Position numbers and translations under genes: made by a program. A stretch of 38,188 bases of DNA from a virus. Shown in pieces: positions 1 to 38,188 of this stretch (its first letter is position 1; every line of letters starts with the position of its first letter). The stretch spans positions 1 to 38,188 of the IMG/VR virus record IMGVR_UViG_3300042868_007361. One strand, 5' to 3'. The notes beneath the pieces are model-generated. The model made no database searches. It saw only the letters and a list, made by a program, of their open reading frames with translations, and was not told the DNA's origin.

Positions 1-1
1 T

Positions 2-52
2 GCACGGTACTTTAAAATAAATGATAAAACGACAACTAAAACCGGAATATAA
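2..52 (+). CDS. C-terminal fragment of small conserved phage protein (truncated by window edge)
   Basis: Reading from base 2 gives an open 16-codon tail ending in TAA that contains NDKTTTKTGI. It matches the C-terminus of the complete small protein at 37055-37207, which ends NDKTTTKAGI. The fragment overlaps the start of the next gene in another frame exactly as the complete copy does. It is therefore the cut end of the left-hand copy of the duplicated locus. Function unknown. Confidence 0.55.
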   Translation, partial: ARYFKINDKTTTKTGI

Positions 53-362
53 ATTAGGTCTTAAATACTTAGAAGAAGAACACGGACTCACAACCATAGA
101 ATTATCAGAAAAGCTCGGGATAAATCGCCGTAACGTTACTCAGTATTTGAAATTATGGTCTGAGGTAGGGGTAAAAATCATTGACTGGCAGCCACACAAA
201 CAAGGCCATGCGCCAGTGTACGGTTTTGGTCGCGCAAAGAACAAGCCAACACCAAAAACTAAACTAGAAGTTAGTCGAGCATACAAAGAAAAGTTTGCTG
301 CTGTGATTAAGTTAAAAAAAAGAATTGCTTATCAGAATCGGCTATTGTCTAAAATTGACTAA
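21..362 (+). CDS. Winged-helix/HTH DNA-binding protein, copy 1
   Basis: A 113-residue basic protein. Residues about 22-50 (GLTTIELSEKLGINRRNVTQ) form a clear helix-turn-helix, and a probable wing follows (VGVKIIDWQPHKQGHAPVYG). The C-terminal third is lysine-rich and helical. A role as a DNA-binding regulator is inferred. A second copy lies at 37176-37511. Bases 63-248 are identical between the copies, while both flanks carry scattered, mostly silent changes. The last residues differ (RLLSKID here, KVKSQ there) because homology stops at base 338. Its stop overlaps the stop of the convergent HNH gene. Confidence 0.85.
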   Translation: MIKRQLKPEYKLGLKYLEEEHGLTTIELSEKLGINRRNVTQYLKLWSEVGVKIIDWQPHKQGHAPVYGFGRAKNKPTPKTKLEVSRAYKEKFAAVIKLKKRIAYQNRLLSKID

Positions 363-925
363 ATATGTTTTTTGCTATCTGATTCAATAAAATCAACAGG
401 GCCAGTATTGTTTTCTCGCCAATCTGTAAAATCCCAGTTACCTTTTCCGTGATTACACGGAGAGCATAAAATCTGCAAATTATCAATATCTAAAGCCAAA
501 GAAGGAAACAATTTTCTAGGTTTGATATGGTCAACATTCATAACCGCACCATTTTTAGGACTATCTCCGCAACACATGCAAACAGGCCCATATTTTTTTA
601 ATGCCTGCATTCTTAATTTTCGCCATTCATAACTCGATAAAAAATCATCATTTTTTACGTTTTGAAAACTATTGTATTTTTTAACTGATTTTGATTTTTT
701 CTTTAATTTCTTTGTTTGGTTTTGCTTAATGTAGTTTTCAATCAATTCTATATTTTCTTTTATAAAATTAATTGGCTTTCCACTATATTTTTCTTTATTT
801 GCAGCCCTTAACGCTTGATGTATGCAAAGAGCATAAACACTAACACCATAAGTTGCTTTTATGTTTCCAATTCTCATTAATGAATTAGCAGCTTTAAAGT
901 ACCTAGAATCTAGTTTATCTTTCAT
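359..925 (-). CDS. HNH endonuclease (homing-type or free-standing)
   Basis: A 188-residue protein. The C-terminal half carries a complete HNH zinc-finger nuclease: CMCCG, then the motif VDHIKPRKLF, the spacer LDIDNLQILC and finally SPCNHGKGNWD. The N-terminal 90 residues are lysine/asparagine-rich and may bind DNA. The start is an ATG at 923-925 with only a weak upstream purine run. The gene lies convergent to the HTH gene and is absent from the otherwise homologous locus at 37494-37867, as expected of a mobile homing endonuclease gene or moron. A packaging-type HNH nuclease is less likely, because the gene is far from the terminase and on an accessory allele. Confidence 0.85.
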   Translation of the reverse strand: MKDKLDSRYFKAANSLMRIGNIKATYGVSVYALCIHQALRAANKEKYSGKPINFIKENIELIENYIKQNQTKKLKKKSKSVKKYNSFQNVKNDDFLSSYEWRKLRMQALKKYGPVCMCCGDSPKNGAVMNVDHIKPRKLFPSLALDIDNLQILCSPCNHGKGNWDFTDWRENNTGPVDFIESDSKKHI

Positions 926-1059
926 ATATATGCTCTGTCAGTTTGAGAAAGGCTCTCTTGGGCAAATACTCACCTAAGACGGCCTAAAAAAGCAGTCTCA
1001 GTGAGTACCTTATGCTCCGTTCAGAATCGAAAAGGACATATTGGGCCTAGTATAGTTTT

Positions 1060-1260
1060 AGCTTACTAGAATGCAGGATTACGCCACTAAAATGGCCCTG
1101 TTACCCGTTCCTGCACCGCTTGCGCGTCACTCTTTTGGGTTTGGCTTGTACAGACCCCCGTTGCCTCTCAACACAGTTACGGCGGATTTTAATGCGGCTC
1201 TGCCTGTGTCCAGTTGGGTTATTGCGCTCAATTCTGAGTTTGATTTATACGACTAGCAAA
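1060..1260. other. Relatively GC-rich non-coding stretch beside the HNH gene
   Basis: Bases 926-1419 hold no convincing gene. Within them, about 1060-1260 is visibly richer in G and C than the surrounding AT-rich genes. It is open in two plus frames (1071-1256 and 1120-1461), but neither has a ribosome-binding site or a recognisable protein. Its composition resembles 2060-2560. It belongs to the segment missing from the other copy of this locus. Purpose unknown; structured RNA or leftover mobile DNA are the options. Confidence 0.35.
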
Positions 1261-1284
1261 CTTTGGTCTAGTCTCGCTGAAAAC

Positions 1285-1368
1285 AAAAAAGCCGTTAAGA
1301 AAGACACCTTAGAAAAACATAACTTTTTAGGTTATGCCACCCTTTCGGGAAGTGTCTTACTTAACAGC
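1285..1368 (-). terminator. Elaborate leftward terminator with long stem (copy 1)
   Basis: 1291-1310 pairs with 1350-1368 (GTTAAG-AAGACAC arms). The stem encloses an inner hairpin CATAAC...GTTATG at 1319-1335 and a short CCC-TTTC-GGG hairpin. Read leftward, the stem is followed by six T residues (1290-1285) and a further T-rich run, the signature of an intrinsic terminator. It would end transcription of the small leftward gene at 1420-1638. Confidence 0.7.
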
Positions 1369-1419
1369 TCTTTGTGGTTTCTATGCCAACACCCAAACAT
1401 TAGCACAAATACAACACAA

Positions 1420-1638
1420 TTACAAGCTAGGAGAACCAACAATTTTCATTTTTTTCTCTAACTTTTCCAGCGTATCTAGTGAACGCTCTACTATTGTTAC
1501 CCCATACTCATCACTTAAAAACTCAGGAAGCACACCTTGTCGATAAAGTTCGTAATCACTTAAAATCTGCGCAAAACCTTCTAACAAATACAAAATATCG
1601 TTTTTTTCTAGTGCTGAGATGTCGAGGTATTCTGTCAT
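1420..1638 (-). CDS. Small conserved acidic protein, copy 1
   Basis: A 72-residue protein of unknown function, predicted mostly helical and acidic at the N-terminus, with a lysine-rich C-terminal helix (TLEKLEKKMKIVG). It is judged real because a second copy at 37899-38117 keeps the same frame and length. The differences between the copies are mostly silent or conservative and cluster in the middle (ILSDYELYRQGVLP versus ILTDYEMYRAGTYP). No clear ribosome-binding site precedes the ATG. A long structured terminator lies downstream. Confidence 0.65.
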   Translation of the reverse strand: MTEYLDISALEKNDILYLLEGFAQILSDYELYRQGVLPEFLSDEYGVTIVERSLDTLEKLEKKMKIVGSPSL

Positions 1639-1672
1639 ATATATTAAAGTTATACTAAGTTAGTGAAAAATG

Positions 1673-2038
1673 CTAATTTGTTAAATTGTAAAAATCTCTT
1701 TTACAATCTCTAAAATCTTTAAGCCTTAAATGTATATTTTCAATCTGCTGACCAACAGAAAAGTATTCATAAATTAAACTTTTATTAGATTCGCTTCTAA
1801 ATTTAATTAACCCTTGTTTAAATTTATTCTTTAAATTTTTATGCTGTGTTTTTGTTTTTATTTTTAGTAAAGTTTTTAATAATCTGTTTTTTCTATTCAA
1901 TCTGTTCAAAATATCAGTTAGCTCGGTAAAATTTAAATCTTTTTCAACTTCCACGCAATTTTTTTGCGATGTAGCAAGAAACGCATTTCTGTTAACAGGC
2001 GTTCTTAAAAAGATTTGATTTAAATTTAATGTTTTCAT
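1673..2038 (-). CDS. Lysine/asparagine-rich hypothetical protein
   Basis: A 121-residue basic, AT-rich gene product with a predicted helical core (LNRLNRKNRLLKTLLKIKTK). I do not recognise the family. The ATG at 2036-2038 is preferred over the longer reading from 2089, which would run into the GC-rich non-coding block. No good ribosome-binding site is visible. The last 37 bases of the window repeat its 3' end exactly, so it sits at the junction where the duplicated ends rejoin unique sequence. Confidence 0.55.
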   Translation of the reverse strand: MKTLNLNQIFLRTPVNRNAFLATSQKNCVEVEKDLNFTELTDILNRLNRKNRLLKTLLKIKTKTQHKNLKNKFKQGLIKFRSESNKSLIYEYFSVGQQIENIHLRLKDFRDCKRDFYNLTN

Positions 2039-3395: not shown

Positions 3396-3411
3396 TTGAG
3401 GAATTATCTAA

Positions 3412-3603: not shown

Positions 3604-3605
3604 CG

Positions 3606-21511: not shown

Positions 21512-21528
21512 GTTTTTCCTATAAAAAA

Positions 21529-22191: not shown

Positions 22192-22192
22192 A

Positions 22193-23070: not shown

Positions 23071-23081
23071 TTAGGCCCCTT

Positions 23082-23123: not shown

Positions 23124-23145
23124 TTCATACATTTAATAAAAAATG

Positions 23146-25613: not shown

Positions 25614-27784
25614 TATGGTGCTGTATAACCTTGGAAGTTAGCACGAACAGTACCAGCAGCGCTTAAGTTTGCATTAAGTGCAGTGTTAGCAGTTGTCAAA
25701 ATTTCAGTCGGGAAAGGAAGAACCACAGGCACGTTAATTGGCAACGTTAAGCGCCAACGCTCTGTAGCACCGTCTAAAATAATCAAATCAACCGCCGCAG
25801 CACCTGTGTTAATCGCTTGACAAGCAGTTAAATGCCGCTTTAATCCAGCCCCTGCCGCTGTTTGAATAGCCGCTGCCGTAGTAGTTGTTAGCGCCAAAGA
25901 CGCGTTAAAGCCTGCCTCAGGAATTGCATAAGGCTTAATAATTTGAGCGCCTACGGTTGTAGTAATCATGTCTGCAACATCGCCACCAGCTACGGCAGTA
26001 TAGTTTGCAGTTACAGCACGACCAGCTACACGATGAGGAGAACCAGCAATAACCGCATCATGTGCCGCCTGTCCGTTTGACAGTGTGGTGACTGTGGTTA
26101 CAGTGCCAGACGATACAGTGACAGCAGGTGTGCCGTTTACGGTAACAGGCAGCGAACCAGACACATCACCAGTCGCACGGGGCAGAATTTCTACTCGCTC
26201 GCGCTCATAATCAAACACACGAGCAAAACTAATACGCATATCGGTACGCTTGATAACAGCACCGCCGCAGTTAGTGGTAGTGATGTCTGTGCCTGTAGGC
26301 GTTGCGCCGATTGGCTCTAAAAATAAATTAGTGGTTTGAATATCTAGTACTCGATAAGCACCATCAACGCCTAAAGTTGCGCCTGTTGAAATATCACGGA
26401 TACCGACAATATTCACATAGTCACCAATCAACAAACCAGACCATGCTGCACTACCTACAACGGTTACAATATTTGAAGCACGCGCAAAGCTTTGTGCTGA
26501 TTGTGCAATAGCGCCCAAGGCTGACATTAAGTTGCCGCCTTGAACCTTGGCAACATACCCGCCGTATGATGTGGCAGTAACCGAAGCGCCCCAAATTACT
26601 GTAATGCTTGTGGTATTTACAATCGAAGCAACTGCGGTAGCCGTGGTTAAGTTAGCAAAGTTTGTTTGGTCACGCACACCATAAGCAACAATAACATCAG
26701 CAGTGGTAAGGTTATGTGGTCGGTCAAATACGATAGTTGCAGTGGTAGAGCCAGCTTTTGCTACGCTAACAATCTGCGCGGTAGGAATGGTTAATCCTTT
26801 GTTATCAGTCGCGCGGAAACGTAACTTATAACGCTTATTAGGACTTGGAACTACTTGGGTGCGAGTAACGCGAGCAGTTGTACCAGATGTAGAATCAACA
26901 CCAGAATCAGACCATTGCAAACGGTCAGCCATTAAAGACAGTCGATATTCAGTAGTTGGCTGGAATGAATAATTTAATGCAGCGTTTACGGCTTGAACGG
27001 ATGCGGTCGTACCAACGGCAACAGAGTGATTGCCAGCAATAGAGGCAGATGGTAAAACGTCGCCTGATTCTGAACGAATATATGCTGAGGCGTTTGTTAC
27101 TACACCGTTCTCGAATAAAAGGCTAGTGCCGTTTTTAGCAAAACCCAAAGCCGAACGGAAATAAACAAAGCCGCTATTGAATGGGCCAGCCGTTACGCTT
27201 GGAATAGCACCTCCGGGGCCTACTGTAGCTGTAAATTGTGTAGTCGTTGGAGTAGTCGCAACAACTAAAGCAGGATAGTTTAACCGGCTATCAGATACCC
27301 CAAATACACCAAATCGAGCGCCAACGACTAATCCGTGAGGCGTTGCAGTTGTAATTGTGAGCGTGGTTGCTGATTGTTGAATTGCTGAAATAGTTAAATC
27401 AGCAGGCGGTGTAAGAGGTGCATCTGTATCAACAAATTCAACAGAGAACTCTTGACCTAAAGTGCGCTGAGACATTGATAGGCCAATGCTTGCCTCAAAC
27501 GGCATGGCAAAATCATTAACCGTTTCAATGGTCGTAACATTGCCAGCCGTTAATGGGTCTTTAGAGATAACCAAATAAGAAGCGGCAGCGCAATTACCAT
27601 CTACTTGTATGATGTCTCCATCGCCAAGCGTTTGATTCCATTTCTCGCTCGGAGTGTAGGTTTCGAACGCTTCGCGGAATTTAGTCGTTACGTTTGAAGA
27701 TACAACCACCTCAGAATAAGAACCGCTGCCAATATCCTTAAATTCTCGATTGATTGAATCTACTGAAAATTGTTTATCTGCCAT
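25613..27784 (-). CDS. Large beta-rich virion protein
   Basis: A 723-residue Thr/Val/Ala-rich protein, almost all predicted beta. Weak internal repeats contain G-V-x-D/R blocks (GARFGVFGVSDSRLNYPALV; IVAYGVRDQTNFANLTTA; GDYVNIVGIRDISTGA). It is placed between gp4-like and gp10-like genes, so it belongs to the portal-proximal tail or a fibre. ATG at 27782-27784 has a GGGGG site 6 bases upstream; the GTG further up is less likely. No enzymatic motif seen. Its length and place have no counterpart in P22. Confidence 0.7.
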   Translation of the reverse strand: MADKQFSVDSINREFKDIGSGSYSEVVVSSNVTTKFREAFETYTPSEKWNQTLGDGDIIQVDGNCAAASYLVISKDPLTAGNVTTIETVNDFAMPFEASIGLSMSQRTLGQEFSVEFVDTDAPLTPPADLTISAIQQSATTLTITTATPHGLVVGARFGVFGVSDSRLNYPALVVATTPTTTQFTATVGPGGAIPSVTAGPFNSGFVYFRSALGFAKNGTSLLFENGVVTNASAYIRSESGDVLPSASIAGNHSVAVGTTASVQAVNAALNYSFQPTTEYRLSLMADRLQWSDSGVDSTSGTTARVTRTQVVPSPNKRYKLRFRATDNKGLTIPTAQIVSVAKAGSTTATIVFDRPHNLTTADVIVAYGVRDQTNFANLTTATAVASIVNTTSITVIWGASVTATSYGGYVAKVQGGNLMSALGAIAQSAQSFARASNIVTVVGSAAWSGLLIGDYVNIVGIRDISTGATLGVDGAYRVLDIQTTNLFLEPIGATPTGTDITTTNCGGAVIKRTDMRISFARVFDYERERVEILPRATGDVSGSLPVTVNGTPAVTVSSGTVTTVTTLSNGQAAHDAVIAGSPHRVAGRAVTANYTAVAGGDVADMITTTVGAQIIKPYAIPEAGFNASLALTTTTAAAIQTAAGAGLKRHLTACQAINTGAAAVDLIILDGATERWRLTLPINVPVVLPFPTEILTTANTALNANLSAAGTVRANFQGYTAP

Positions 27785-27814
27785 CACTGCCCCCAAAAAA
27801 TTCACTGCAATAAA

Positions 27815-28261
27815 TTAACCAACGCGATACCAACAATTAGTAGATTGGTTATACTTCATTTTAAAAAATGCATTTGCTGCCAAAGTCGTAGGCGCACCGT
27901 AAACAGTGCTTGCGCCGGGCGCTTCTAGTCGAAAATCTGTAATTGCCTGCGTTGTTGTGATTAAAATTTCCTGATTATTAACAAGCGTCAATACAGTAGG
28001 AAAAGTCACCCCATAAGTAGCAATAGTGCCAGCCGGGTTCATAATCAACCAACTAGATACGCCAACTGCTCCGATTGTGGTAGAGCCTAAATTGACAGGA
28101 ATAGCCAATTGGGTTTGAAATGTATCGGTTTCGGTAATCTTTGAATTGAAATAATCAACTAAAGATTGTGCTTGATACTTGTAATCCTGTCCGCTTTCGT
28201 TCCCTGCAAATACAGTCGAATCCGTTACCGTATCATTTAATAAAAGCTTTTCAATGGTCAT
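27815..28261 (-). CDS. Small virion protein, possibly fibre or needle component
   Basis: A 148-residue protein. The N-terminus (TIEKLLLNDTVTDSTVFAGN) suggests an attachment segment and the rest is beta-rich (ITTTQAITDFRLEAPGASTV). It overlaps the gp4-like gene by one base. Function inferred only from location. Confidence 0.6.
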   Translation of the reverse strand: MTIEKLLLNDTVTDSTVFAGNESGQDYKYQAQSLVDYFNSKITETDTFQTQLAIPVNLGSTTIGAVGVSSWLIMNPAGTIATYGVTFPTVLTLVNNQEILITTTQAITDFRLEAPGASTVYGAPTTLAANAFFKMKYNQSTNCWYRVG

Positions 28262-28749
28262 TATTTGTCCTTACTAAATAATAGGTCGTTGTTCTCTGTC
28301 TGTAGTGTTTCATTGCTTGTTGGCGGTAAAAAAACCATTTGCGGTTGTGAAAACAGTTTATTACCAGCGCCAGCAGGAACACCCGCACGAATCTTAACTT
28401 GTGGAACTGGAATCATCATATACAGCATGTTTAACGCTTGATATGCTTGAATCTTTGTTTCTGGATTTAGTTGCTTACCAACGGACGGGGCAAGCCTAAC
28501 AGCCAAATTACTCACGATTGCACTATTGGCATACGGAGGAACGTTAGTTTCTTCGTCAATGGATGAGGTTTCAGGACTTGCAGCAAATGGATAGCCTAAC
28601 TTGATACCTTTAGCGTCAAACTCCAGCATCATATTGTCTAGCTTATTAACTGCCGATTGCAATTGCTCTGCCTGCAAATCAAAAATATAATTTGCAAGCC
28701 CAATTTCCTCATAGGCTGCTAATAAAAAATCACGCTTTGTCCAGCTCAT
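28261..28749 (-). CDS. P22 gp4-like tail accessory factor
   Basis: A 162-residue protein. WTKRDFLLAAYEEIGLANYI, LQSAVNKLDNMMLEFDAKGI and the C-terminal QALNMLYMMIP match the family that binds below the portal and starts tail assembly. In P22 gp4 may also have wall-hydrolase activity, which cannot be judged here. ATG at 28747-28749 is preferred over the TTG two codons upstream. Confidence 0.8.
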   Translation of the reverse strand: MSWTKRDFLLAAYEEIGLANYIFDLQAEQLQSAVNKLDNMMLEFDAKGIKLGYPFAASPETSSIDEETNVPPYANSAIVSNLAVRLAPSVGKQLNPETKIQAYQALNMLYMMIPVPQVKIRAGVPAGAGNKLFSQPQMVFLPPTSNETLQTENNDLLFSKDK

Positions 28750-28996
28750 CTTCAATCAACTTTTGAAGTTTTGCATCTGAGGTGCGCCCGTCAAATTTAA
28801 TGGATAGTTTTGTCGCCATGTCTTCCAATTCGGCACGCTTGTCAACTTCTTTTGCTTCTTCATCTTTCCACGCGTCGGCATGGTACAGCCAGCCATCGCT
28901 CAAAGCCTGCTCAATGTCAGACTCTTCAAATACTTTGTAATCAACCTTGCGCCCATCGCAAAGATAAGGCCCATTCTTCTTATAGAGCATTGTCAT
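28730..28996 (-). CDS. Small acidic head-tail region protein
   Basis: An 88-residue protein. GRKVDYKVFEESDIEQALSD near the middle of the N-terminal half is common in small phage proteins after the coat; a charged helix and a C-terminal ATKLSIKFDGRTSDAKLQKL follow, a segment that resembles a HeH/SAP-type mini-domain. Function unknown. It begins by ATGA overlap with the gene before. Confidence 0.65.
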   Translation of the reverse strand: MTMLYKKNGPYLCDGRKVDYKVFEESDIEQALSDGWLYHADAWKDEEAKEVDKRAELEDMATKLSIKFDGRTSDAKLQKLIEDELDKA

Positions 28997-29133
28997 TTTT
29001 TACCACTCCGTTTTTTTGCTTCTTTAGCCACAGAAAGCGAAATTGCGACAGCTTGCTTAACTGGCTTGCCAGATTTAACTTCTTTGCGGATATTTTCGCT
29101 TACAGTCTTTTTGCTATAACCTTTTTTGAGCAT
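28993..29133 (-). CDS. Small basic protein downstream of coat
   Basis: A 46-residue, Lys-rich protein (SENIRKEVKSGKPVKQAVAI). The NI-x-x-E-V-x-x-GKP-x-x-QAVAI-x-LS pattern is frequent in tiny phage proteins near structural genes. Likely nucleic-acid binding; function unknown. It lies just after the coat terminator and would be made from read-through. Confidence 0.65.
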   Translation of the reverse strand: MLKKGYSKKTVSENIRKEVKSGKPVKQAVAISLSVAKEAKKRSGKK

Positions 29134-29143
29134 TATTCACTCC

Positions 29144-29167
29144 AAAAGAGAGGGGCCGAAGCCCCTC
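29144..29167 (-). terminator. Coat gene terminator
   Basis: On the minus strand GAGGGGC-TTCG-GCCCCTC (29167-29150) is followed by TCTTTT. The UUCG loop and 7 GC-rich pairs make a strong hairpin; the short T-run suggests partial termination, letting some transcription continue into the tail genes. Confidence 0.7.
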
Positions 29168-29172
29168 ACTCA

Positions 29173-30402
29173 TTAGGTTTGGTTGGCTAAGATGATACCA
29201 ACTTGCTCTGGGTCACGAACAGTAACCGCATAGATTGTGCTAAACCGGACAGTGGTTTTAGCAGTCAATGAGTTAAATTCGTAAGCCATAGTCAAAGGCA
29301 CGCCGTTCTTAGTGGTTGAGGTCATAACTTGTGCGCCCTGACCAGATGGGAACGCAAGGCGACCATAATCCAAACCAACAGAACCATCAGCCCAGAATAC
29401 GTTGGACGGTGCAGTCACAGTGTTTAAGAATGTGATTGCAGCACCGTTAGCAGCCTGTGCAGTGGCGTTTTGGTATGGGCCAGAAGTGATAATAGGAGGG
29501 CTTACAGTCAAGTTAGCACCACCACCAGCAACAGAAATAACACGGAACGTCAAAGGCGAACCAGTGCTTGTCTTGTTGATTTGGTGAGTACTATTAACAC
29601 CAGCTACCACAAACGAATCACCTGCTTTAATGTTTGCAATGTTTGCGCCCGATACGTTCAGAACCATTTGGCGGTTATCTGTCGGCACATCACCAGTCAT
29701 AGCTGAAGGTGTGTAGGACTGATTGCCGTTAATAGTAGTGCCAGAAACAGTGCCAACTGCGGCAACGTTGTTCGCCATATCTAAGCGGAAAGTGCGGAAG
29801 CCACCGATACCGGGAACTTGTGAACGCTCATAAGCCGATTTGTTAATGTCTGCCATATACTGACGATTGCCCAAGTCTTTAGCAACTTGAACGTAGTCGG
29901 TTGGGTTCATAAACAACTTACGAGTACGGCCCATGCCAACACCACGGATAAGCATTTGTTGTTCAGCGCTTAAGCCATCATCCCAAGTGAAAGCGCCAAC
30001 TTTCTTAACAACGATAGACGCACGGTTAGTAACCGCAGCATTGACGTTGTTTTCAATTTCAGCAGCCAAACGCAAAGATGCAGCTTCGCCCATACGTTTC
30101 ATGGTTTCAGGGTCGCGCATTTCTTTAGCATCCAAAGAAAAACGGACGTTATCAGGCTGACGATAAACAGTAGGGACAACACGTTGAATAACGTCAGTAT
30201 CAGAAGCGCCAGAAATATCTAGGCCAGTGGTTACTGTTGCGTTATATGACTGTGGAACGTAGAAAGTATCACCAGCGCGTTGCATTGCTTGTGGTGATGG
30301 GAAGGAAGTTTCGCACTCATTAGACATTACGGTAGCAGAATCGTAGCCATCTACGAATTCTCCGAACATAATCTCCAGGTCTTTAGTTAAAGCATTGGCC
30401 AT
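29173..30402 (-). CDS. Major capsid protein, P22 coat-like
   Basis: A 409-residue coat protein. NALTKDLEIMFGEFVDGYDS, VVPTVYRQPDNVRFSLDAKE and MRDPETMKRMGEAASLRLAA agree with the P22-type HK97 fold, and a Thr/Gly-rich insertion-like region occupies residues about 215-315. AAGGGG precedes the ATG. The gene is flanked by its own upstream terminator/promoter and a downstream terminator, fitting its need for high output. Confidence 0.92.
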   Translation of the reverse strand: MANALTKDLEIMFGEFVDGYDSATVMSNECETSFPSPQAMQRAGDTFYVPQSYNATVTTGLDISGASDTDVIQRVVPTVYRQPDNVRFSLDAKEMRDPETMKRMGEAASLRLAAEIENNVNAAVTNRASIVVKKVGAFTWDDGLSAEQQMLIRGVGMGRTRKLFMNPTDYVQVAKDLGNRQYMADINKSAYERSQVPGIGGFRTFRLDMANNVAAVGTVSGTTINGNQSYTPSAMTGDVPTDNRQMVLNVSGANIANIKAGDSFVVAGVNSTHQINKTSTGSPLTFRVISVAGGGANLTVSPPIITSGPYQNATAQAANGAAITFLNTVTAPSNVFWADGSVGLDYGRLAFPSGQGAQVMTSTTKNGVPLTMAYEFNSLTAKTTVRFSTIYAVTVRDPEQVGIILANQT

Positions 30403-30516
30403 TATTAGCCCCTTTCAGAAAAAAGTGAATAAATAAACATAGTCACTCATCATTAAGAGGCCGATGGAAGCCGAATAAATTTTAATCAGCGTTATAGTCC
30501 GCGACACTATGATGAA

Positions 30517-30544
30517 TTTTTATCTAATTTTAGAAAATTGTCAA
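30517..30544 (-). promoter_or_regulatory. Likely coat gene promoter
   Basis: Read leftward: a perfect TTGACA (30544-30539), 16-base spacer and TAAAAA (30522-30517), just after the scaffold terminator and about 115 bases before the coat ATG. A CATAGT...ACTATG hairpin (30493-30511) lies in the early leader. Confidence 0.55.
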
Positions 30545-30551
30545 GCGGTAC

Positions 30552-30574
30552 AAAAAAGCCGGAAAAATCCGGCT
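30552..30574 (-). terminator. Scaffold gene terminator
   Basis: On the minus strand AGCCGG-ATTTTT-CCGGCT (30574-30557) runs into six T residues (30557-30552), a standard intrinsic terminator 9 bases after the scaffold stop. It would isolate early-late genes from the coat unit. Confidence 0.8.
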
Positions 30575-30582
30575 AATTTTGG

Positions 30583-31392
30583 TTATTTAGACAATGAACG
30601 CTTTAGTTTGAAATACTCGTCATAATCTCCGGTATTCCTTGCACGCTCTAAGGCATCCTCAATTCGCTTATTAGTGCCTTCGTTTGGTGCGCTAGAGCGT
30701 AAAGTCTTCTCTGGCGCGGGTTTTGTAGTCGTTTTTGGTTGCATTTTCGTTCCACTTTCAAAAGATGCTAGTTTGACCGCAAAGTCAATCGGGTCTGTGA
30801 TTTTAGATAGCTCAGATGCTAGGTCTTTGTCCTTGCCAAGCCGTAAAACAAACTCGGCAGGGTTTTGTAAGACTTTAACAATTAAACTTTGCTGAACCGT
30901 GCTTAACAAATCTTGAACGTATAGCTCTGCATCCTCAATTTCATCTTGGTCATATTGCTTTTTTGCCTCATTGTAGGCATTGACCTTTTCAGAAAATGAT
31001 TTTTGAGCTAATTGCTCGCGTTCTTTTTCAGCTTCTTTTTTCTTTTCGACTTCGATTGACTTTTTAACCCAATCTTTATAAGCCGAACGGAATGCGTTTT
31101 CGTCGTAATCAAAATCCTCGAGCGAAGGTTCTTTTCCTAACTCTGGCTCTTTAGTTTCTGGCTCTAACTTACGCTTTAGCTCTTTGTTTTCCTTATTAAG
31201 CTCACGTAAACGGCGGCGCATATCGCGGATTGGCACGCTTTCGTCTTGCGGTTCTTCCTGCTGCGGCTCGGTTTGTACTTCTTCAGCCTGCTCTTCCTGA
31301 ACTTCGTCTTGTTGCTCTTCAACGACCTGTTCTACTTCTTCAACTTCCTGCGCTTCTTCAACTACTTCCTGCACTTCAAGCTCGTCACTCAT
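30583..31392 (-). CDS. Scaffolding protein
   Basis: A 269-residue protein. The first 55 residues are almost all Glu/Gln/Val, then basic/acidic helices (DMRRRLRELNKENKELKRKL) and a C-terminal basic helix (ARNTGDYDEYFKLKRSLSK) that matches the coat-binding end of P22-type scaffolds. Located between portal and coat, the P22 order. Directs procapsid assembly and then leaves. Overlaps the portal stop by 8 bases. Confidence 0.85.
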   Translation of the reverse strand: MSDELEVQEVVEEAQEVEEVEQVVEEQQDEVQEEQAEEVQTEPQQEEPQDESVPIRDMRRRLRELNKENKELKRKLEPETKEPELGKEPSLEDFDYDENAFRSAYKDWVKKSIEVEKKKEAEKEREQLAQKSFSEKVNAYNEAKKQYDQDEIEDAELYVQDLLSTVQQSLIVKVLQNPAEFVLRLGKDKDLASELSKITDPIDFAVKLASFESGTKMQPKTTTKPAPEKTLRSSAPNEGTNKRIEDALERARNTGDYDEYFKLKRSLSK

Positions 31393-33436
31393 TTACATTT
31401 ACTCCATTCTCGGCACTAGGCGCTGCCGGTTGCGCTTGCGCTGATTGCGCTAAAACTTGCATATTCTTAACCGCCATGTCTTGCTCTGATTGGTCAATCT
31501 CTGCCAGAGTTTTCATTGTCTTAGCTTTGGTTTCTTCGGCCTTGGCTAAGTTTAGGACGGTTTCTACTCGCGATTTTGTTGCATCTGCGTTTGCCTGCTC
31601 AGTAAGCCCGATTAAGTATTGCTGCTCTGGCGTTGGCTGCATGTTTTGCATTGCCTTGGCCTGCAATTCTTCTTTTTCATCGTCGGTCGGTTCTACTGCG
31701 CCAATATCCAACAGCATATTTCGGTAGTATTTACGCACATCTGCAAGGCCTTCGCCCTCCATATTTTGCATAATCAGCGATGCAAGAACGGTTTTGCGCT
31801 GCGGGTCTTGTTCTTGAGCATGAATAGCCATTAGATTCTTAACGACCGAGTTTCGCTTGCTTGTTGATGTCGGCCCTACGTCTGCATAAACATCAAAATC
31901 AGCGCGGCTCAAATCGTTTTTAAGCGTAACCTTTCCGGTTTCTTCGTCTAAATACGGGTCAGATTTTAGCTTGCGTGATTCTGGCTCGTTTTCTTTTCCG
32001 AGATATTTCATCTCTCGGTCGTCGTCTGTATAAATATCTTTAGCCATAGATAACCAAATCTGACCAGCACGCTGTAACGCACGAGCTAAGTTTGACATCG
32101 GCAAGAATAGATTAACATCAACACGTTGTTGAATCATATCAACCGCTTGACCAGAAACATTCGATACTAACTTATCGGCTGATTGATTGTTGCCGAGAAT
32201 TTCTTGAATGTCTTGCTCGGTAAGTGTCAGTAACGCAGCCAAAGACTGAGGAACGGTAGGCGGCTCAAGAATAGCAACCGGCCCTTGCGCTGAAATACTG
32301 CCATCTGCTCCGGTGACTTTATTGACAAGCAAATATGGGTTACGCTCAATCGTATCATTGGCCCACATATGGCTAAGTCCAGCAACTTGCTCTGGCACAA
32401 AGATTGGCTTGCGAATTTGCGGATAGGTTGCAATCTCTGCAAGAATAGCAATTAAAGCGTTTTTGATACGTTGCGGGTCTTTACCGGGCCGAACAATACC
32501 CATAAACCGCTCAATGCCGTTAACGTACCAACGTTTACAATAAACCGGCACAATCGGAATATGCTTGCCAGCGATATAACCACAGTCTTCTAGAATCTTA
32601 GAACCGGATAGCAAATACTTGTGAATTTTGGTTTTCTTGACCTTCTTAGATTTCTCTAGCACAAAACCTAACGCAGCAAGCTCTTTTTGTTCGTCTTCGT
32701 CATATTCTGATTTGTAAACCTTACGCTTTTCGCCAGTAGAATCAACAAAGTGAAGCACTGTTTCAGTTACTTGCTCTTTTTGATACCACTCAGCCACATA
32801 TACGTTTTTATCGTTGCACCAGTCAAAGTGTTGGTAAAACTTCTCAATGGGCCACGACGTAGGGTCATCACCAAACGTTTCAATATAAGAATCGACAGAA
32901 TAAGGAGTAAGAACACAACTCCAATCAGCATCTGATTTATCCATACGCAACGCTGTAGGGTCAAAAAATACTCGTTGGTCTGCATCTGGTATAGGCTCAA
33001 ATCGAATCCGTTGCTTGTCGTCGTCTTCGTCTTCGTCGTCTTCGTACTCATTACACAGCCGGAAAGCGCCAAAACCACCGCCAAGCGCCTCTTCGTAGGC
33101 ATTATCAACAGCTTCAAGTCCCTGCGAATCTTGAAAGTCTGCACGATACAGACCATCGCAAAGGTCTGCTAATTCGTCGCTCTTACCGTCCTTTGGAATA
33201 AAATCAACGTCTATCCGATTGTTCCGATACTCAGCAATTGCTCGGATAACAGCTTGGTGACATTTATTAAACTCAGGCTTCGCTCGGTTCTCAAACAGTC
33301 GAGCGTAGTTGCCTTCATATTGCGCACCAGTAATAGAATAGAATCTGCGGTCTTCTTGTGACTGCAATCGCTCATCCTGACCGATATTGTAAGCATCATC
33401 AAATTTGCGTAAGCACTGAGCTAAAAAATCATCCAT
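31385..33436 (-). CDS. Portal protein, P22-like
   Basis: A 683-residue P22-type portal. LRKFDDAYNIGQDERLQSQE and AIAEYRNNRIDVDFIPKDGK form the N-terminal signature, with a long stem and wing region. The C-terminal part is a Gln/Ala-rich helical barrel (LAQSAQAQPAAPSAE). ATG at 33436 is chosen because GGA lies 8-10 bases before it; ATG at 33442, which overlaps the terminase stop, is an equal alternative and adds two residues. Forms the dodecameric DNA entry ring. Confidence 0.92.
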   Translation of the reverse strand: MDDFLAQCLRKFDDAYNIGQDERLQSQEDRRFYSITGAQYEGNYARLFENRAKPEFNKCHQAVIRAIAEYRNNRIDVDFIPKDGKSDELADLCDGLYRADFQDSQGLEAVDNAYEEALGGGFGAFRLCNEYEDDEDEDDDKQRIRFEPIPDADQRVFFDPTALRMDKSDADWSCVLTPYSVDSYIETFGDDPTSWPIEKFYQHFDWCNDKNVYVAEWYQKEQVTETVLHFVDSTGEKRKVYKSEYDEDEQKELAALGFVLEKSKKVKKTKIHKYLLSGSKILEDCGYIAGKHIPIVPVYCKRWYVNGIERFMGIVRPGKDPQRIKNALIAILAEIATYPQIRKPIFVPEQVAGLSHMWANDTIERNPYLLVNKVTGADGSISAQGPVAILEPPTVPQSLAALLTLTEQDIQEILGNNQSADKLVSNVSGQAVDMIQQRVDVNLFLPMSNLARALQRAGQIWLSMAKDIYTDDDREMKYLGKENEPESRKLKSDPYLDEETGKVTLKNDLSRADFDVYADVGPTSTSKRNSVVKNLMAIHAQEQDPQRKTVLASLIMQNMEGEGLADVRKYYRNMLLDIGAVEPTDDEKEELQAKAMQNMQPTPEQQYLIGLTEQANADATKSRVETVLNLAKAEETKAKTMKTLAEIDQSEQDMAVKNMQVLAQSAQAQPAAPSAENGVNVNE

Positions 33437-33438
33437 AA

Positions 33439-34674
33439 TCATTTCCAAGAAAGATTTACAACGGGCGGCATGTAATTATCAACCTTTGCCGAATTGTTTA
33501 GTTTGCGGGCATTCTCGCATGCATAACGTAGTGCGTCAATTACGTGGTTGTTTTTATCTTCTAGCTGGTTAGATATTTTAATCTCGCCCGTCATTTGGTC
33601 TAGCTCATACCGATATGAGTAGGTTTTCAATTCTTGGATTAGATGCCCGCATCTAGGATGCACAACAATATCAAACGATTTTAGAAACTCGATACCTTCT
33701 TCGATTGATTTTGGCCCTTTGACTGCTGGAACGATACGCGGGAAGCCGTGGTTGCGTAGATAACTTATAGTTTCTGGTCTTGCGCTATCGGCAGTGATAA
33801 AGAAGTCACGGCAACGCGGAATAGTATCAAACAAGTCCGGCAGCTTATCAATCTCACAGCCGACCATGTGTGCCTCATAGTCTACATAAAGAATCCGACC
33901 AGATATGTAGCAGCGTATAAGCACAGTGGGGTCAACACTAAAGCCCCAGTCAGCACCAAACCTAAAATCCGCACCAGCGTCACTTTCAAACTCTTTAACT
34001 TCCCAGTTTTTGAAGACTGTAGCTTGTGATTGTTTTCTGTAGTTGCCAAGATAAATCCAATTGAATTTGTCAAAGTCTCTCTCCCGCATCGGCTCGATTT
34101 CTTCCGAAACAAACTGCTTATCGAGAAATGCAAGGTTATCTTGATACGTAGAATGAATGACAATCGAGCCAGCGGGAGGATTTAGAGCAAGCAAATCAAT
34201 CGGGTCTGTTGGCTCTTCCGGATTATATGAGCACCACATTTCCGCGCCAGCCTTCCGCATAATCGTCGGTATAAGCTTGTCAAGACTGGTTTGTGAGATA
34301 TTCCGGCCTTCTTCTATCCAACAAACGTCTGTACCTTCTAGAGATTTAATAGACTCTGCTGTGTGGTCTTTCAACCCACGGAAAATGATGCGACCACCGT
34401 TCTTGTCTGTGATTTCTGTCTTAGTAATACTAAAGAAGTCCTGAAGACCGTAATGCTGTATTTTTACTTCTAACAAAGATTTGACCGAATCACTAATAGA
34501 ATTCTGATACTCACGCACACATACAGAACGCGTTTGCGTCATTAAATGTCTTTCAATTAAACTTTCAGCGAAGAAATGAGAACGACCAGCGGCGCGACCA
34601 CCCTTGGCGAATTTATACCTACTACGCTCAAGAAATGGTCTGTAAACTTTTAAAGTTTTGAATTCTACTTGCAT
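33439..34674 (-). CDS. terL: Terminase large subunit
   Basis: A 411-residue packaging motor. ATPase part: KGGRAAGRSHF near residue 25 is a deviant Walker A, and VCWIEEG near 116 is Walker B with the catalytic glutamate. Nuclease part: FGADWGFSVDP, ITADSARPE and NHVIDALRYA give the three metal-binding aspartates of the RNase H-like fold. Terminase_3/PBSX type. Cuts and pumps phage DNA into the head. Confidence 0.95.
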   Translation of the reverse strand: MQVEFKTLKVYRPFLERSRYKFAKGGRAAGRSHFFAESLIERHLMTQTRSVCVREYQNSISDSVKSLLEVKIQHYGLQDFFSITKTEITDKNGGRIIFRGLKDHTAESIKSLEGTDVCWIEEGRNISQTSLDKLIPTIMRKAGAEMWCSYNPEEPTDPIDLLALNPPAGSIVIHSTYQDNLAFLDKQFVSEEIEPMRERDFDKFNWIYLGNYRKQSQATVFKNWEVKEFESDAGADFRFGADWGFSVDPTVLIRCYISGRILYVDYEAHMVGCEIDKLPDLFDTIPRCRDFFITADSARPETISYLRNHGFPRIVPAVKGPKSIEEGIEFLKSFDIVVHPRCGHLIQELKTYSYRYELDQMTGEIKISNQLEDKNNHVIDALRYACENARKLNNSAKVDNYMPPVVNLSWK

Positions 34675-34676
34675 GG

Positions 34677-35120
34677 CTATTTTTTTATTTTCAATCTGTT
34701 TCCATTAAACAACAAATTAGGATTGACATAATAAAAAACCGACTTTCCTGTGTGCGCTATAAACTCATGCTCCACCAACTCTTTAATGCCTCGATAATAC
34801 TTGCTTTTTGGTATGTCATTATGAAACAACACAACAACGTCGCTACATATTGATTGCTGCATCTCTTTCATGACCTCGCACAGCATAAATATACCAGCGC
34901 TATTCAACTTAGCAATCTTGGGCAATGCAGCAGGGAAAACTTTAACAAATTCAGCAGCATCAAAATTAACAGTCTTAGATATATAAGATTGCTCGGTTAG
35001 CAGCTCTCCGGTTTCCATATCTACAATAGAGCGGGAATCTTTCTTCTTCGCACTACTTCTTTTTTGTTTTATCTCAAAAACAACAGTAAACGGATTAGGC
35101 TTATTACCAGCAAAAACCAA
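34677..35120 (-). CDS. RepL-like winged-helix protein
   Basis: A 147-residue protein. SIVDMETGELL near residue 30, a winged helix (LNSAGIFMLCEVMKEM ... IPKSKYYRGIKELVEHEFIA) and the ending YYVNPNLLFNGNRL match RepL-type plasmid/phage replication initiators. It lies between the probable small terminase and the large terminase, where no replication protein is normally found. The start is taken as TTG at 35118-35120, because AGGGTG lies 6 bases before it; GTG at 35127-35129 is the alternative and would place that site inside the gene. Packaging specificity or regulation are other possible roles. Confidence 0.6.
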   Translation of the reverse strand: MVFAGNKPNPFTVVFEIKQKRSSAKKKDSRSIVDMETGELLTEQSYISKTVNFDAAEFVKVFPAALPKIAKLNSAGIFMLCEVMKEMQQSICSDVVVLFHNDIPKSKYYRGIKELVEHEFIAHTGKSVFYYVNPNLLFNGNRLKIKK

Positions 35121-35271
35121 GACAATCACCCTATTTTATACAAAATTATCCAACAAATAAGCACAATACCACTTTATTTTCTCAACATCTGGTAAGAAAG
35201 TTGCAAAAGTGAGACAATAATATCATATTTTATGCGGGCTTGCAGTCATCCGTTCTTATAATCTTCAAATA

Positions 35272-35288
35272 GGCAAGAATCGTGCCAG
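35272..35288 (-). promoter_or_regulatory. Sigma-54-type promoter of the late operon
   Basis: Read leftward: CTGGCACGATTCTTGCC, which fits the RpoN consensus TGGCAC-N5-TTGC exactly (-24 GG at 35286-35285, -12 GC at 35274-35273). The predicted start lies about 12 bases further left, some 140 bases before the RepL-like gene and the terminase-to-lysis block. It sits just after the terminator at 35328-35346. Activity would need an enhancer-binding activator; no such gene is seen in the window, so a host one is implied. Confidence 0.55.
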
Positions 35289-35321
35289 CTTTTAAATAAT
35301 CTAAAAATAATTTATAAGCAT

Positions 35322-35346
35322 AAAAAAGCCCACCAATCAGGCGGGC
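35322..35346 (-). terminator. Terminator after the probable small terminase
   Basis: On the minus strand GCCCGCC-TGATT-GGTGGGC (35346-35328) runs into six T residues (35327-35322). It ends the one-gene transcript of 35379-35630 and separates it from the late operon. Confidence 0.8.
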
Positions 35347-35378
35347 TTATATCACCAAAAATACTATATAAAGTGTAA

Positions 35379-35630
35379 TCACTCAACAATCTTACGCACA
35401 ATCTCTGTAACTTTCATGTCTGCCTCGATATTAGCTTGAACTTGCTGTAAGTCAGGCAAACACTTCTTAAGCAAGATTTCAGCGGCCTTAATCTGTGTTG
35501 CTGTCATATCTACGCCACCCATGGCATGATTACCCAAACGATTGATAAGCTCGGCAGCTTTAATCTTAGTCCGCCACTCTTCACTCATACGAACACGCTC
35601 TTTAGTTGTATTCTTTAAATAATTCGACAT
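35379..35630 (-). CDS. Probable terminase small subunit
   Basis: An 83-residue, helical protein. WRTKIKAAELINRLGNHAMG and DMTATQIKAAEILLKKCLPD resemble the HTH-containing small proteins that phage annotations place upstream of the large terminase as its DNA-recognition partner. AAGGA is 9 bases before the ATG. It is separated from the large subunit by the RepL-like gene, with its own promoter and terminator, so a regulatory role is an alternative. Confidence 0.6.
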   Translation of the reverse strand: MSNYLKNTTKERVRMSEEWRTKIKAAELINRLGNHAMGGVDMTATQIKAAEILLKKCLPDLQQVQANIEADMKVTEIVRKIVE

Positions 35631-35676
35631 TTTACGAATCCTTAAAAATCAAGCACTTACAAAAAATAGTGTACTA

Positions 35677-35682
35677 ATTATA
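35677..35682 (-). promoter_or_regulatory. -10 box of leftward promoter for small terminase gene
   Basis: A perfect TATAAT read leftward, in the 155-base divergent gap before the probable small terminase. The region about 17 bases upstream is a T-rich tract (TTTTTA) without a strong -35 box. Confidence 0.45.
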
Positions 35683-35721
35683 CAACACAAGAAAAAAAAT
35701 AAAAATAATTGAAAATATGCA

Positions 35722-35750
35722 TTGCTTTTATGTCGTTCAGTATGTAATAT
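35722..35750 (+). promoter_or_regulatory. Sigma-70-type early promoter
   Basis: TTGCTT (35722-35727), 17-base spacer, TAATAT (35745-35750), about 35 bases before the first gene of the rightward end operon. Shares ATGYATTGCTTTTA context with the promoter at 2641-2669. No GTTGTATTT operator is seen here. Confidence 0.6.
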
Positions 35751-35785
35751 ACATACATCGCAGCAAAACAACTGAGGAGCAAAAA

Positions 35786-36049
35786 ATGTTTTTAACACAC
35801 ACAGTACGCGAACCATTAAATAGCCTAGAGGAACAAAAAAACAATGTTGCAAATACTGCAAAATCTAAAGGCCTGGTATATGGTGATTATCTTTATAACG
35901 GTAACGGCTACGGTGTGCCAGCTTTGGGCGGCAATACATACAACGTTAAAGAAACATTAAAACAGTTTGGAGCTAAATTCAAAGGTGATTCTAAAGTATG
36001 GGCCTTTGATTCTTTTGAGCAACTTAATTCAGCACTTGCTGCAATTTAA
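35786..36049 (+). CDS. Small early protein
   Basis: An 87-residue protein. The C-terminal part (TYNVKETLKQFGAKFKGDSK followed by VWAFDSFEQL) resembles a small domain found in many phage and DNA-repair-associated proteins, in which a predicted fold precedes a K-x-W motif. TGAGGAGC before the ATG at 35786 is a strong ribosome-binding site; the longer reading from 35717 would cross the promoter. First gene of its operon; function unknown. Confidence 0.7.
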   Translation: MFLTHTVREPLNSLEEQKNNVANTAKSKGLVYGDYLYNGNGYGVPALGGNTYNVKETLKQFGAKFKGDSKVWAFDSFEQLNSALAAI

Positions 36050-36076
36050 TTTTTTAATAATTTAGGAGAAACAAAA

Positions 36077-36265
36077 ATGATTCAATTTCAATACCCCGAA
36101 GGCGCTGAACAGTTTGATGCAGCAGCATTCAACCAAGACGGCTCATTCATCATGACAGGACATAGAGAAGAGTGCGAGCAAGCAGCGATTGATGCTCGTG
36201 GACTGTACTGCTTGTGGGTTAACGGTCTGCCAGTAATCCGCTTCGACTTTGAAGATAAAGAATAA
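36077..36265 (+). CDS. Small acidic hypothetical protein
   Basis: A 62-residue protein (MIQFQYPEGAEQFDAAAFNQ), acidic, probably a small beta/alpha fold. TAGGAGAA precedes the ATG. Family not recognised. Confidence 0.65.
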   Translation: MIQFQYPEGAEQFDAAAFNQDGSFIMTGHREECEQAAIDARGLYCLWVNGLPVIRFDFEDKE

Positions 36266-36296
36266 AAATTAATCCAAACACACAAAGAGGAAAAAA

Positions 36297-36503
36297 ATGA
36301 TTACCAACATCAAAAAACTAGCAAAAGTAAAAAACGAAGATAAAGACCAACCAGAAACTTTATATTTTCAACTAGTAGAAGTTACTTATAACGTTTTTGG
36401 TCGAGTTTTTACTGAAACATTTGATACCCGCATCACAAATAAAGGCCAGTTTATTATTGATGGTGATGGCTTTATTAAGCACGATTTAGAATTGCCAGCA
36501 TAA
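36297..36503 (+). CDS. Small hypothetical protein
   Basis: A 68-residue, beta-rich protein (TLYFQLVEVTYNVFGRVFTE) of unknown function. AAAGAGGAAAAA is a good ribosome-binding site. Anti-host or regulatory roles are typical at this position in phages, but nothing specific is visible. Confidence 0.65.
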   Translation: MITNIKKLAKVKNEDKDQPETLYFQLVEVTYNVFGRVFTETFDTRITNKGQFIIDGDGFIKHDLELPA

Positions 36504-36516
36504 AGAGGAAAGCAAA

Positions 36517-36696
36517 ATGCAAGCACTAATCGAAAAAGCAAAACAATTAAATGTCAATCAGTTGTGTGATTTAATTAAACAACTTTATGTTGACTATTCA
36601 GATGAAGCCGGTATTTGTTTGGATGCTTGCATGACTGCATTAGAACAAAAAACAACGCCTGAGTTTTTCTTAAACTTTTGCGGCTCTATCGAATGA
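36517..36696 (+). CDS. Small helical hypothetical protein
   Basis: A 59-residue protein (MQALIEKAKQLNVNQLCDLI) with predicted helices and a cysteine-containing second half. TAAAGAGGAAAG precedes the ATG. Stop overlaps the next ATG. Confidence 0.6.
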   Translation: MQALIEKAKQLNVNQLCDLIKQLYVDYSDEAGICLDACMTALEQKTTPEFFLNFCGSIE

Positions 36697-36881
36697 ACAA
36701 GCGAGAAACAATCCTTAATATTTTTATGGTTGCAGGCTATCACAACGACAAGCAAACATTTATGCGAGTTTTTGTCGAAAATAGAGTTAGCCTGCAGAAA
36801 GCAAATGAGCAATGGCGAATAGGCGTAGCTCAAAAAAAAAACGGGATGAAATGCACTTGTTACGAATGCAATAGAGTATAA
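36693..36881 (+). CDS. Small protein with C-terminal zinc knuckle-like motif
   Basis: A 62-residue protein (MNKRETILNIFMVAGYHNDK) ending in KCTCYECNRV, a compact CxCxxC group. The ATG at 36693 overlaps the previous stop; a longer reading from 36678 is a frame artefact. Function unknown. Confidence 0.6.
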   Translation: MNKRETILNIFMVAGYHNDKQTFMRVFVENRVSLQKANEQWRIGVAQKKNGMKCTCYECNRV

Positions 36882-36882
36882 A

Positions 36883-37074
36883 ATGGACTACATCGCACTC
36901 AAATACGCACTTTCAGATGCCAAGATTGCCCAAGGTCTTACAGTAGAAAACCAATACCGCGCACGTCTTGAGTATCTGCGGAATAAAAAAGCTACTTGGA
37001 TTACTGGCGACGAGATTGATTTGCGCCGTGACATTGACGAATTTTTAAGCCAAAATGAACGACAAACAGCATAA
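36883..37074 (+). CDS. Small hypothetical protein
   Basis: A 63-residue helical protein (ALKYALSDAKIAQGLTVENQ) with a DEIDLRRDIDEFL acidic end. Starts one base after the preceding stop region. Function unknown; it overlaps the next gene by 20 bases. Confidence 0.6.
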   Translation: MDYIALKYALSDAKIAQGLTVENQYRARLEYLRNKKATWITGDEIDLRRDIDEFLSQNERQTA

Positions 37075-37207
37075 GGAATGGCTAGAAGAACGCGCCGCGA
37101 TTCGTGAGTATGACGGACTGCAACCTCGAAAAGAAGCTGAGAAAGCCGCATTAGATGATTTTGAACGGTATTACAATGATAAAACGACAACTAAAGCCGG
37201 AATATAA
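37055..37207 (+). CDS. Conserved small phage protein (WLEERAAI type)
   Basis: A 50-residue protein. HKEWLEERAAIREYDGLQPR followed by KEAEKAALDDFERYY is a familiar small helical protein of many phages and prophages, function unknown. Its last third overlaps the HTH gene in another frame. A truncated second copy is at the left edge of the window (2-52). Confidence 0.65.
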   Translation: MNDKQHKEWLEERAAIREYDGLQPRKEAEKAALDDFERYYNDKTTTKAGI

Positions 37208-37511
37208 GCTAGGCCTGAAATACTTAGAAGAAGAACACGGACTCACAACCATAGAATTATCAGAAAAGCTCGGGATAAATCGCCGTAACGTTACTCAGTA
37301 TTTGAAATTATGGTCTGAGGTAGGGGTAAAAATCATTGACTGGCAGCCACACAAACAAGGCCATGCGCCAGTGTACGGTTTTGGTCGCGCAAAGAACAAG
37401 CCAGCGCCAAAAACTAAGCTAGAAGTTAGTCGAACATACAAAGAAAAGTTTGCTGCCGTGATTAAGCTTAAGAAGAGAATTGCTTATCAGAATAAAGTTA
37501 AATCACAATAA
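37176..37511 (+). CDS. Winged-helix/HTH DNA-binding protein, copy 2
   Basis: A 111-residue homologue of the protein at 21-362, with the same HTH (GLTTIELSEKLGINRRNVTQ) and wing. It differs by a few residues (PAPKTK for PTPKTK, RTYKEK for RAYKEK) and by its last residues (KVKSQ). Most base changes are silent, so both versions are under selection. The ATG at 37176 overlaps the preceding gene. Here the gene is followed by hairpin DNA instead of an HNH gene. Confidence 0.85.
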   Translation: MIKRQLKPEYKLGLKYLEEEHGLTTIELSEKLGINRRNVTQYLKLWSEVGVKIIDWQPHKQGHAPVYGFGRAKNKPAPKTKLEVSRTYKEKFAAVIKLKKRIAYQNKVKSQ

Positions 37512-37522
37512 TATATACTAGG

Positions 37523-37543
37523 GTGGATAGAATCATTATCCAC
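37523..37543 (+). terminator. Hairpin after HTH copy 2
   Basis: GTGGATA-GAATCAT-TATCCAC, a perfect 7-bp stem 12 bases after the gene. It is followed by a weakly T-rich stretch (CATCTCCATATCTTT), so intrinsic termination would be modest. It probably marks the end of the rightward operon. Confidence 0.45.
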
Positions 37544-37763
37544 TCATCTCCATATCTTTAATAAAGAAACAATTAAAAATACCAAGTTCGCTTGACGGGA
37601 TTATTCGCTTATACAAACGGCCTAGTTTCCACCTGAGTTACCGTTAGCTTTAACTGATACCTAATCCTAGTTCAGTCGGACAATCGCGGGGTGTATCGCG
37701 TGCCGGTGTTTTATTCTAAGCAGCCCATGCAAGCCCGTTTCTATCGTGTAGAGTACGGTCAAA

Positions 37764-37882
37764 TAAAAAAAGCCCTTAAGTCTTAGCTTTCAGCGCCCGA
37801 ACACTGCCAGATAACTGGAAAAAAGCTAAGGCTTAAAGGCCTTAATCGTCTAATGTTCGGGCATTTGACACCCAAACATTAG
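37764..37882 (-). ncRNA. Pseudoknot-capable structured terminator (copy 2)
   Basis: Bases 37512-37898 contain no gene. Leftward, after the small gene at 37899-38117, three pairings exist. (a) 37882-37871 with 37861-37850: 12 pairs including one G-U that exists only in the minus-strand RNA. (b) The long terminator stem 37843-37822 with 37790-37771, followed by seven T residues (37771-37765 region). It encloses CCAG...CTGG. (c) TGTTCGGGC at 37803-37795, in the stem's loop, with GCCCGAACA at 37862-37854. Pairings (a) and (c) share 37854-37861 and exclude each other. Pairing (c) plus (b) is an H-type pseudoknot. Terminator function is likely; switching is inferred. Confidence 0.55.
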
Positions 37883-37898
37883 CACAAATACAACACAA

Positions 37899-38117
37899 TT
37901 ACAAGCTAGGAATACCTACAATTTTCATTTTTTTCTCTAACTTTTCCAGCGTATCTAGTGAACGCTCTACTATTGTTACCCCGTACTCGTCACTTAAAAA
38001 CTCAGGATAAGTTCCAGCACGATACATTTCGTAATCAGTCAATATCTGTGCAAAACCTTCCAACAAATACAAAATATCGTTTTTTTCTAGTGCTGAGATG
38101 TCGAGGTATTCTGTCAT
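37899..38117 (-). CDS. Small conserved acidic protein, copy 2
   Basis: A 72-residue homologue of the product of 1420-1638. Its N-terminus (MTEYLDISALEKNDILYLLE) is identical; the middle differs and the C-terminus ends VGIPSL instead of VGSPSL. The unchanged frame with mostly silent or conservative change supports a real protein. Function unknown. Confidence 0.65.
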   Translation of the reverse strand: MTEYLDISALEKNDILYLLEGFAQILTDYEMYRAGTYPEFLSDEYGVTIVERSLDTLEKLEKKMKIVGIPSL

Positions 38118-38151
38118 ATATATTAAAGTTATACTAAGTTAGTGAAAAATG

Positions 38152-38188
38152 CTAATTTGTTAAATTGTAAAAATCTCTTTTACAATCT
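38152..38188 (-). CDS. 3' fragment of the gene at 1673-2038 (cut by window end)
   Basis: Identical to 1673-1709, including the stop codon. It is the end of the Lys/Asn-rich gene reached again on the second pass through the locus. Confidence 0.6.
   Translation of the reverse strand, partial: DCKRDFYNLTN

Follow-up and report, generated by a model that had tools for sequence, protein, structure and literature searches.

The HEARO and IsrB-IscB omega RNAs are structured RNAs that lie beside a nuclease gene in mobile contexts, an arrangement shared by the phage locus described here, in which the variable segment between an HTH gene and a small leftward gene holds a structured RNA of one of two families, referred to as family 1 and family 2 (HEARO stands for HNH Endonuclease-Associated RNA and ORF). 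The nuclease sets the locus apart from those systems, being an isolated HNH domain whose N-terminal region differs and which matches neither RuvC nor IscB; further differences are the lack of an Rfam match and the occurrence of family 1 mostly without an HNH gene. The free-standing phage HNH homing endonucleases resemble it in the type of gene (phrog_144 / PF01844), in its intergenic position and in its presence in one allele only, whereas here the gene is preceded by a structured RNA that is conserved and several hundred nt long. Among the titles and abstracts returned by full-text literature searches on structured phage RNAs, HNH-associated RNAs and HEARO/IscB, none describes these RNAs, and a description outside Rfam is possible.

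The window, meaning the whole stretch of DNA that was analysed, is the 38188-base IMG/VR record IMGVR_UViG_3300042868_007361. Its homologues of the portal, scaffold, coat, head-closure (Hc3) and DNA-transfer proteins of P22 and Sf6 mark the phage as a P22/Sf6-like podovirus, with which the presence of an Erf protein also agrees; tail-spike families, a Terminase_3 large subunit and a DnaB-type helicase are encoded as well. The portal protein matches the Sf6 gene 3 protein with an E value of 8e-116 and the P22 portal with one of 6e-72, the two matched entries being taken here to be those of Sf6 and P22. Positions 20000-38188 gave no megablast match among 50,697 phage records, and neither a tRNA nor a tmRNA was detected in the window. 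P22 and Sf6 package their DNA by the headful mechanism, which suits a permuted map, and by analogy we infer from the P22/Sf6-like head module that the window phage would do the same.

The repeated locus and the circular map

At both ends of the window an HTH protein gene, a variable segment and a leftward gene for a 72-aa protein follow one another in the same orientation (Table 1), as an earlier note on this DNA had described. The repeats reported there also proved exact: the last 127 bases recur within the start copy, the 128-base suffix having no second occurrence, and the two copies share an internal block of 186 identical bases. The left-hand match, 20-338 with 37175-37493, is ungapped and 95.6% identical (14 mismatches in 319), and the right-hand match, 1389-1709 with 37868-38188, is 93.2% identical, with all 22 of its mismatches ahead of the final 127 bases; by simple arithmetic, a mismatch-free run of 127 bases at the rate of the right-hand match would arise by chance with a probability of about 1e-4. 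Besides pieces of these two matches, no exact repeat of at least 25 bases is found elsewhere in the window. Between them lie the private segments 339-1388 (1050 bases) of the start copy, referred to as allele S, and 37494-37867 (374 bases) of the end copy, allele E, which show no similarity to each other by BLAST and are unrelated. Homology of the start copy to the end copy extends, with small gaps, to base 1, and hence the contig begins inside a diverged copy.

Table 1. Features of the locus at the two ends of the window (S, start copy; E, end copy).
Feature	Position	Strand	Evidence or remark
Start copy of the locus (allele S)	1..1709		repeat comparison
HTH protein gene, allele S, 113 aa	21..362	+	sub-threshold Pfam matches HTH_11 / HTH_24
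186-base identical block, S side	63..248		= 37218-37403
HNH endonuclease gene, allele S only, 188 aa	359..925	-	phrog_144, PF01844
Family-2 structured RNA, directly upstream of the HNH gene	930..1275	-	relatives L054, L094, L097, L113, same place
Strong hairpin then U tract, 5' of family-2 RNA	1285..1368	-	
72-aa gene, allele S, function not assigned	1420..1638	-	
127 bases identical to window end	1583..1709		= 38062-38188
HTH protein gene, allele E	37155..37511	+	conserved start codon probably 37176
186-base identical block, E side	37218..37403		= 63-248
3' hairpin and CUAUCCACCCUAG motif, family-1 RNA	37518..37546	-	
Family-1 RNA core, hairpins H1-H4 and pseudoknot	37582..37761	-	alignment, covariation, covariance model
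Long hairpin then seven U, 5' of family-1 RNA	37773..37843	-	
72-aa gene, allele E	37899..38117	-	
127 bases = 1583-1709, contig stop	38062..38188		exact match

Two related contigs, G001 and G002, were found by a search with the HTH protein. G001 (IMGVR_UViG_3300037189_009927, 36443 bases) holds the locus once: window 37058-38159 aligns with it as a single block at 88.6% identity, after which G001 continues into window 2394-3641 and onward. Since G001 is continuous from the genes of the window end to those of the window start, the window end joins the window start in that genome. The first 87 bases of G001 equal its last 87, which gives a circle of 36,356 bases, and its ends fall within the homologue of the window gene at 25613-27805, with protein matches carrying on over the join; because this closure lies inside another gene, the map is a circular one on which contigs end at arbitrary points. 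The circular genome of about 36.5-37.2 kb that the earlier note had proposed is thereby borne out, the circle measuring 36,479 bases through E and 37,155 through S. The circular-closure reading of the window is supported, the junction being spanned by only one relative, G001. G002 (IMGVR 3300045581_000343, 25755 bases) is 94-95% identical over the structural genes and breaks off inside the same HTH gene (window 37451), a start break that looks as if that sample were polymorphic there too.

Contig ends that share exactly the largest k-mer length are a documented break signature of de Bruijn assemblers, within-population variation is among the break causes that have been simulated, and the assemblies of the study in question were made with metaSPAdes and k-mers up to 127 (PMC10914622). 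The window resembles the contigs of that study in having an end of exactly the largest k-mer in common with another place in the graph, but differs from them in that it rejoins 1.58 kb inside the contig. Together with the 127-base end match, the break signature supports the proposal that the contig stops where the graph rejoins its start. A 127-base overlap was seen in 0 of 48 other complete contigs tested. The overlap of G001 is 87 bases, not 127, so that in each case the k-mer overlap is a putative one. K-mers up to 127 are presumably also used in the JGI pipeline.

On this basis, the assembly graph would be a circle with a bubble, whose branches part at the 186-base HTH block and meet again at the 127-base node. 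The contig path would run from a tip through S, the genome and E, halting on reaching the rejoining node, and the window would comprise one round of the circular map plus an overlap of about 1.7 kb. The S and E branches would correspond to two alleles that coexist in the population, presumably in different virions, at a single cassette site flanked by the HTH gene and the small leftward gene. Over 277 positions of the HTH gene, S and E differ from each other at 9 and each from G001 at 29, so that they are equidistant from this relative, as expected for alleles of one species. The window thus very probably represents the entire, circularly mapped genome of an uncultivated P22/Sf6-like podovirus, in which S and E are population alleles with RNA cassettes. 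As the contig walks both branches of the bubble, a terminal-repeat search misses the closure, and the record would be a complete genome that a two-end repeat search would call linear. The closure itself is ordinary as assembly behaviour, though useful to recognise.

Two alleles within the population are preferred to a tandem duplication, according to which one genome would carry E and then S, with an unassembled piece leading from 38188 to base 1. Both copies do sit in one contig, and nothing but the start of the contig cuts off the upstream homology of S; yet G001 carries the locus only once, in precisely this position, the duplication needs an extra unassembled link and is demanded by nothing in the contig, and the 127-base stop would have to coincide with graph closure by chance, all of which leaves the duplication improbable. 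Fixed physical ends with a short terminal repeat, in place of a circular or permuted map, are common among podoviruses but very unlikely here, given that the window termini share no exact repeat (prefix match length 0), that the G001 contig ends in a different gene, and that the packaging and head genes are of the type found in P22 and Sf6, which use headful packaging. Hardly credible is a misassembly of two different viruses via the 127-base node, since, for all that the copies differ by 4-7% and their cassettes differ too, G001 is collinear with the window through the join and agrees with it there in gene content, and the E and G001 circle sizes agree within 0.4%.

Outside the repeated genes, G001 (locus L021) carries a tRNA-Tyr (gta) gene at 13541-13626 beside the small gene, where the window has the reading frame 1673-2089 (138 aa), for which viral contigs yielded no relative; the surroundings of the small gene look like a variable cargo site. 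Window 2095-2560 consists of about 470 bases between oppositely directed genes with no evident gene, is slightly more folded than shuffles (z -2.3), and is possibly a regulatory or origin region.

Two structured RNAs at one site

In allele E, the segment that separates the HTH gene from the small gene is noncoding, and no gene stands behind its RNA. This family-1 RNA is about 240 nt long in allele E, with a core of about 180 nt that is 97.2% identical to that of G001, against 89.3% and 86.3% for the flanking genes, and in this family the 3' end is formed by a hairpin together with a conserved CCACCC motif. A 19-base probe located the RNA in two phage contigs that are for the most part unrelated apart from it. 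By distant BLAST it was also found in MW202484, the only hit among 50,697 deposited phage records, and a degenerate pattern matched 48 viral contigs. More than 45 relatives of family 1 occur in phages that have not been cultivated, which is probably why the family has gone unnoticed. Four hairpins and a pseudoknot are supported by an alignment of 27 sequences, in which 87.1% of cells are paired and 148 cells have both sides changed. The covariation score of 0.565, compared with 0.200 for shuffled (0/500) and at most 0.156 for slid controls, establishes compensatory changes beyond the controls and with them a structured RNA. With the covariance model built for the family, the window copy reaches 152 bits, and relatives obtained through the pattern reach about 100-200 bits.

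No Rfam covariance model matched the family-1 RNA, and a search of plasmids gave no match to the RNA. Seven further pattern matches lay in genome contigs; the family-1 model matched at none of these seven loci, nor anywhere in three of the genomes concerned, which were searched in full. Across 398 genomes of one bacterial phylum, the model returned three weak matches, none of which was accepted, two overlapping long reading frames and the third being partial and unconvincing.

On the minus strand of allele S, the HNH gene is preceded by a folded stretch of about 345 nt, and this in turn by a strong hairpin with a U tract. The family-1 model does not match this allele, and neither a distant DNA search with the S spacer in phages nor an exact S 20-mer in viral contigs retrieved anything. 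By profile search, family-2 relatives of the folded stretch were identified at L054, L094, L097 and L113, where each stops 36-49 nt short of an HNH gene akin to the one in allele S. In five further loci, family-2 fragments precede an HNH gene by about 200 nt. All of these loci came from a search with the HNH protein, and the link to HNH is thus partly ascertained. Of the 58 predicted pairs, 24 show double changes in a set of five sequences that includes two almost identical ones, with no shuffled control. Compensatory changes among these few sequences support the first hairpins of the RNA, the covariation being less strongly shown than for family 1. Conserved features of the family are the GACYAAAGTTNG loop and GTGGGACTCAGAACC. 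No Rfam covariance model matched family 2. Rfam searches at permissive thresholds yielded matches at chance level only.

Two known types of element were considered for allele S and rejected. A group I intron with an HNH gene does not fit, there being no Rfam intron match and the flanking genes being whole; nor does a HEARO or IscB-IsrB system, the Pfam matches being limited to HNH and a weak Endonuclease_7, with no RuvC reading frame and no Rfam match.

Aside from these two families, the stretches upstream of the HNH genes in L045, L053, L109, L119, L120 and L121 are far more strongly folded than shuffles (z below -4.5, 24 shuffles each). A folding-energy test of HNH leaders gave uneven results and is left out of the evidence. 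The six stretches match neither RNA family, and more HNH-associated RNA families may be represented among them.

Association of the RNAs with HNH genes

Family-1 RNA also stands directly before HNH genes, in L082, L088, L116 and L118 (a weak match in L118), loci that were likewise fetched by the HNH protein. The frequency of RNA-HNH pairing cannot be read from loci obtained in this way; what is informative is that, in stretches as long as 6 kb, the RNA keeps a fixed position before the HNH gene. Among 34 other family-1 loci examined, none has the allele-S HNH subfamily within 1.6 kb. By eye, a different small HNH-like or NinG-like gene follows family-1 RNA in L129 (13407 onward) and L153 (1425 onward).

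In 24 of 28 loci, a gene on the same strand starts no more than 200 nt after the family-1 core, often at a distance of about 95 nt, and the genes in question are diverse, including those for portal, HNH and FDDFW-type proteins and others. The position of the FDDFW-type gene relative to the RNA varies between phages, upstream in one set and downstream in another (L155, L156, L164, L166 and L128 on one side, L132, L138, L142, L146 and L158 on the opposite side), which suggests that family-1 RNA moves. The stretch enclosed by the HTH gene and the small gene is best regarded as a cassette site with alternative occupants, either family-1 RNA (E) or family-2 RNA with an HNH gene (S), and the cassettes could have been swapped via recombination in the flanking genes or via HNH homing.

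The leading inference is that the RNA is an HNH-associated mobile or regulatory leader. It is quite possible, if somewhat short of probable, that the RNAs are cis-acting leaders of whichever gene lies behind them and have no part in an RNA-associated mobile unit. The close spacing of same-strand genes behind the family-1 core and the regular stop of family-2 RNAs ahead of HNH genes speak for a leader, but the gene products behind family 1 are diverse, and in allele E and G001, which have no following gene, the core is still 97% identical. Conservation of the core with no gene behind it makes a pure leader role insufficient. More tentatively, the two unrelated RNA families, which alternate at one site and each also occur directly ahead of genes of the same HNH subfamily, might be parts of an RNA-associated lone-HNH mobile element, a type of nuclease-RNA pair of which no description was found; this proposal is regarded as rather doubtful.

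The part of this genome worth follow-up is the content of the variable segment, not the closure, and the structured RNAs it contains lay beyond what the earlier note had seen. With two RNA families standing before related HNH genes and swapping at one site, the link between lone HNH proteins and structured RNAs becomes directly testable.
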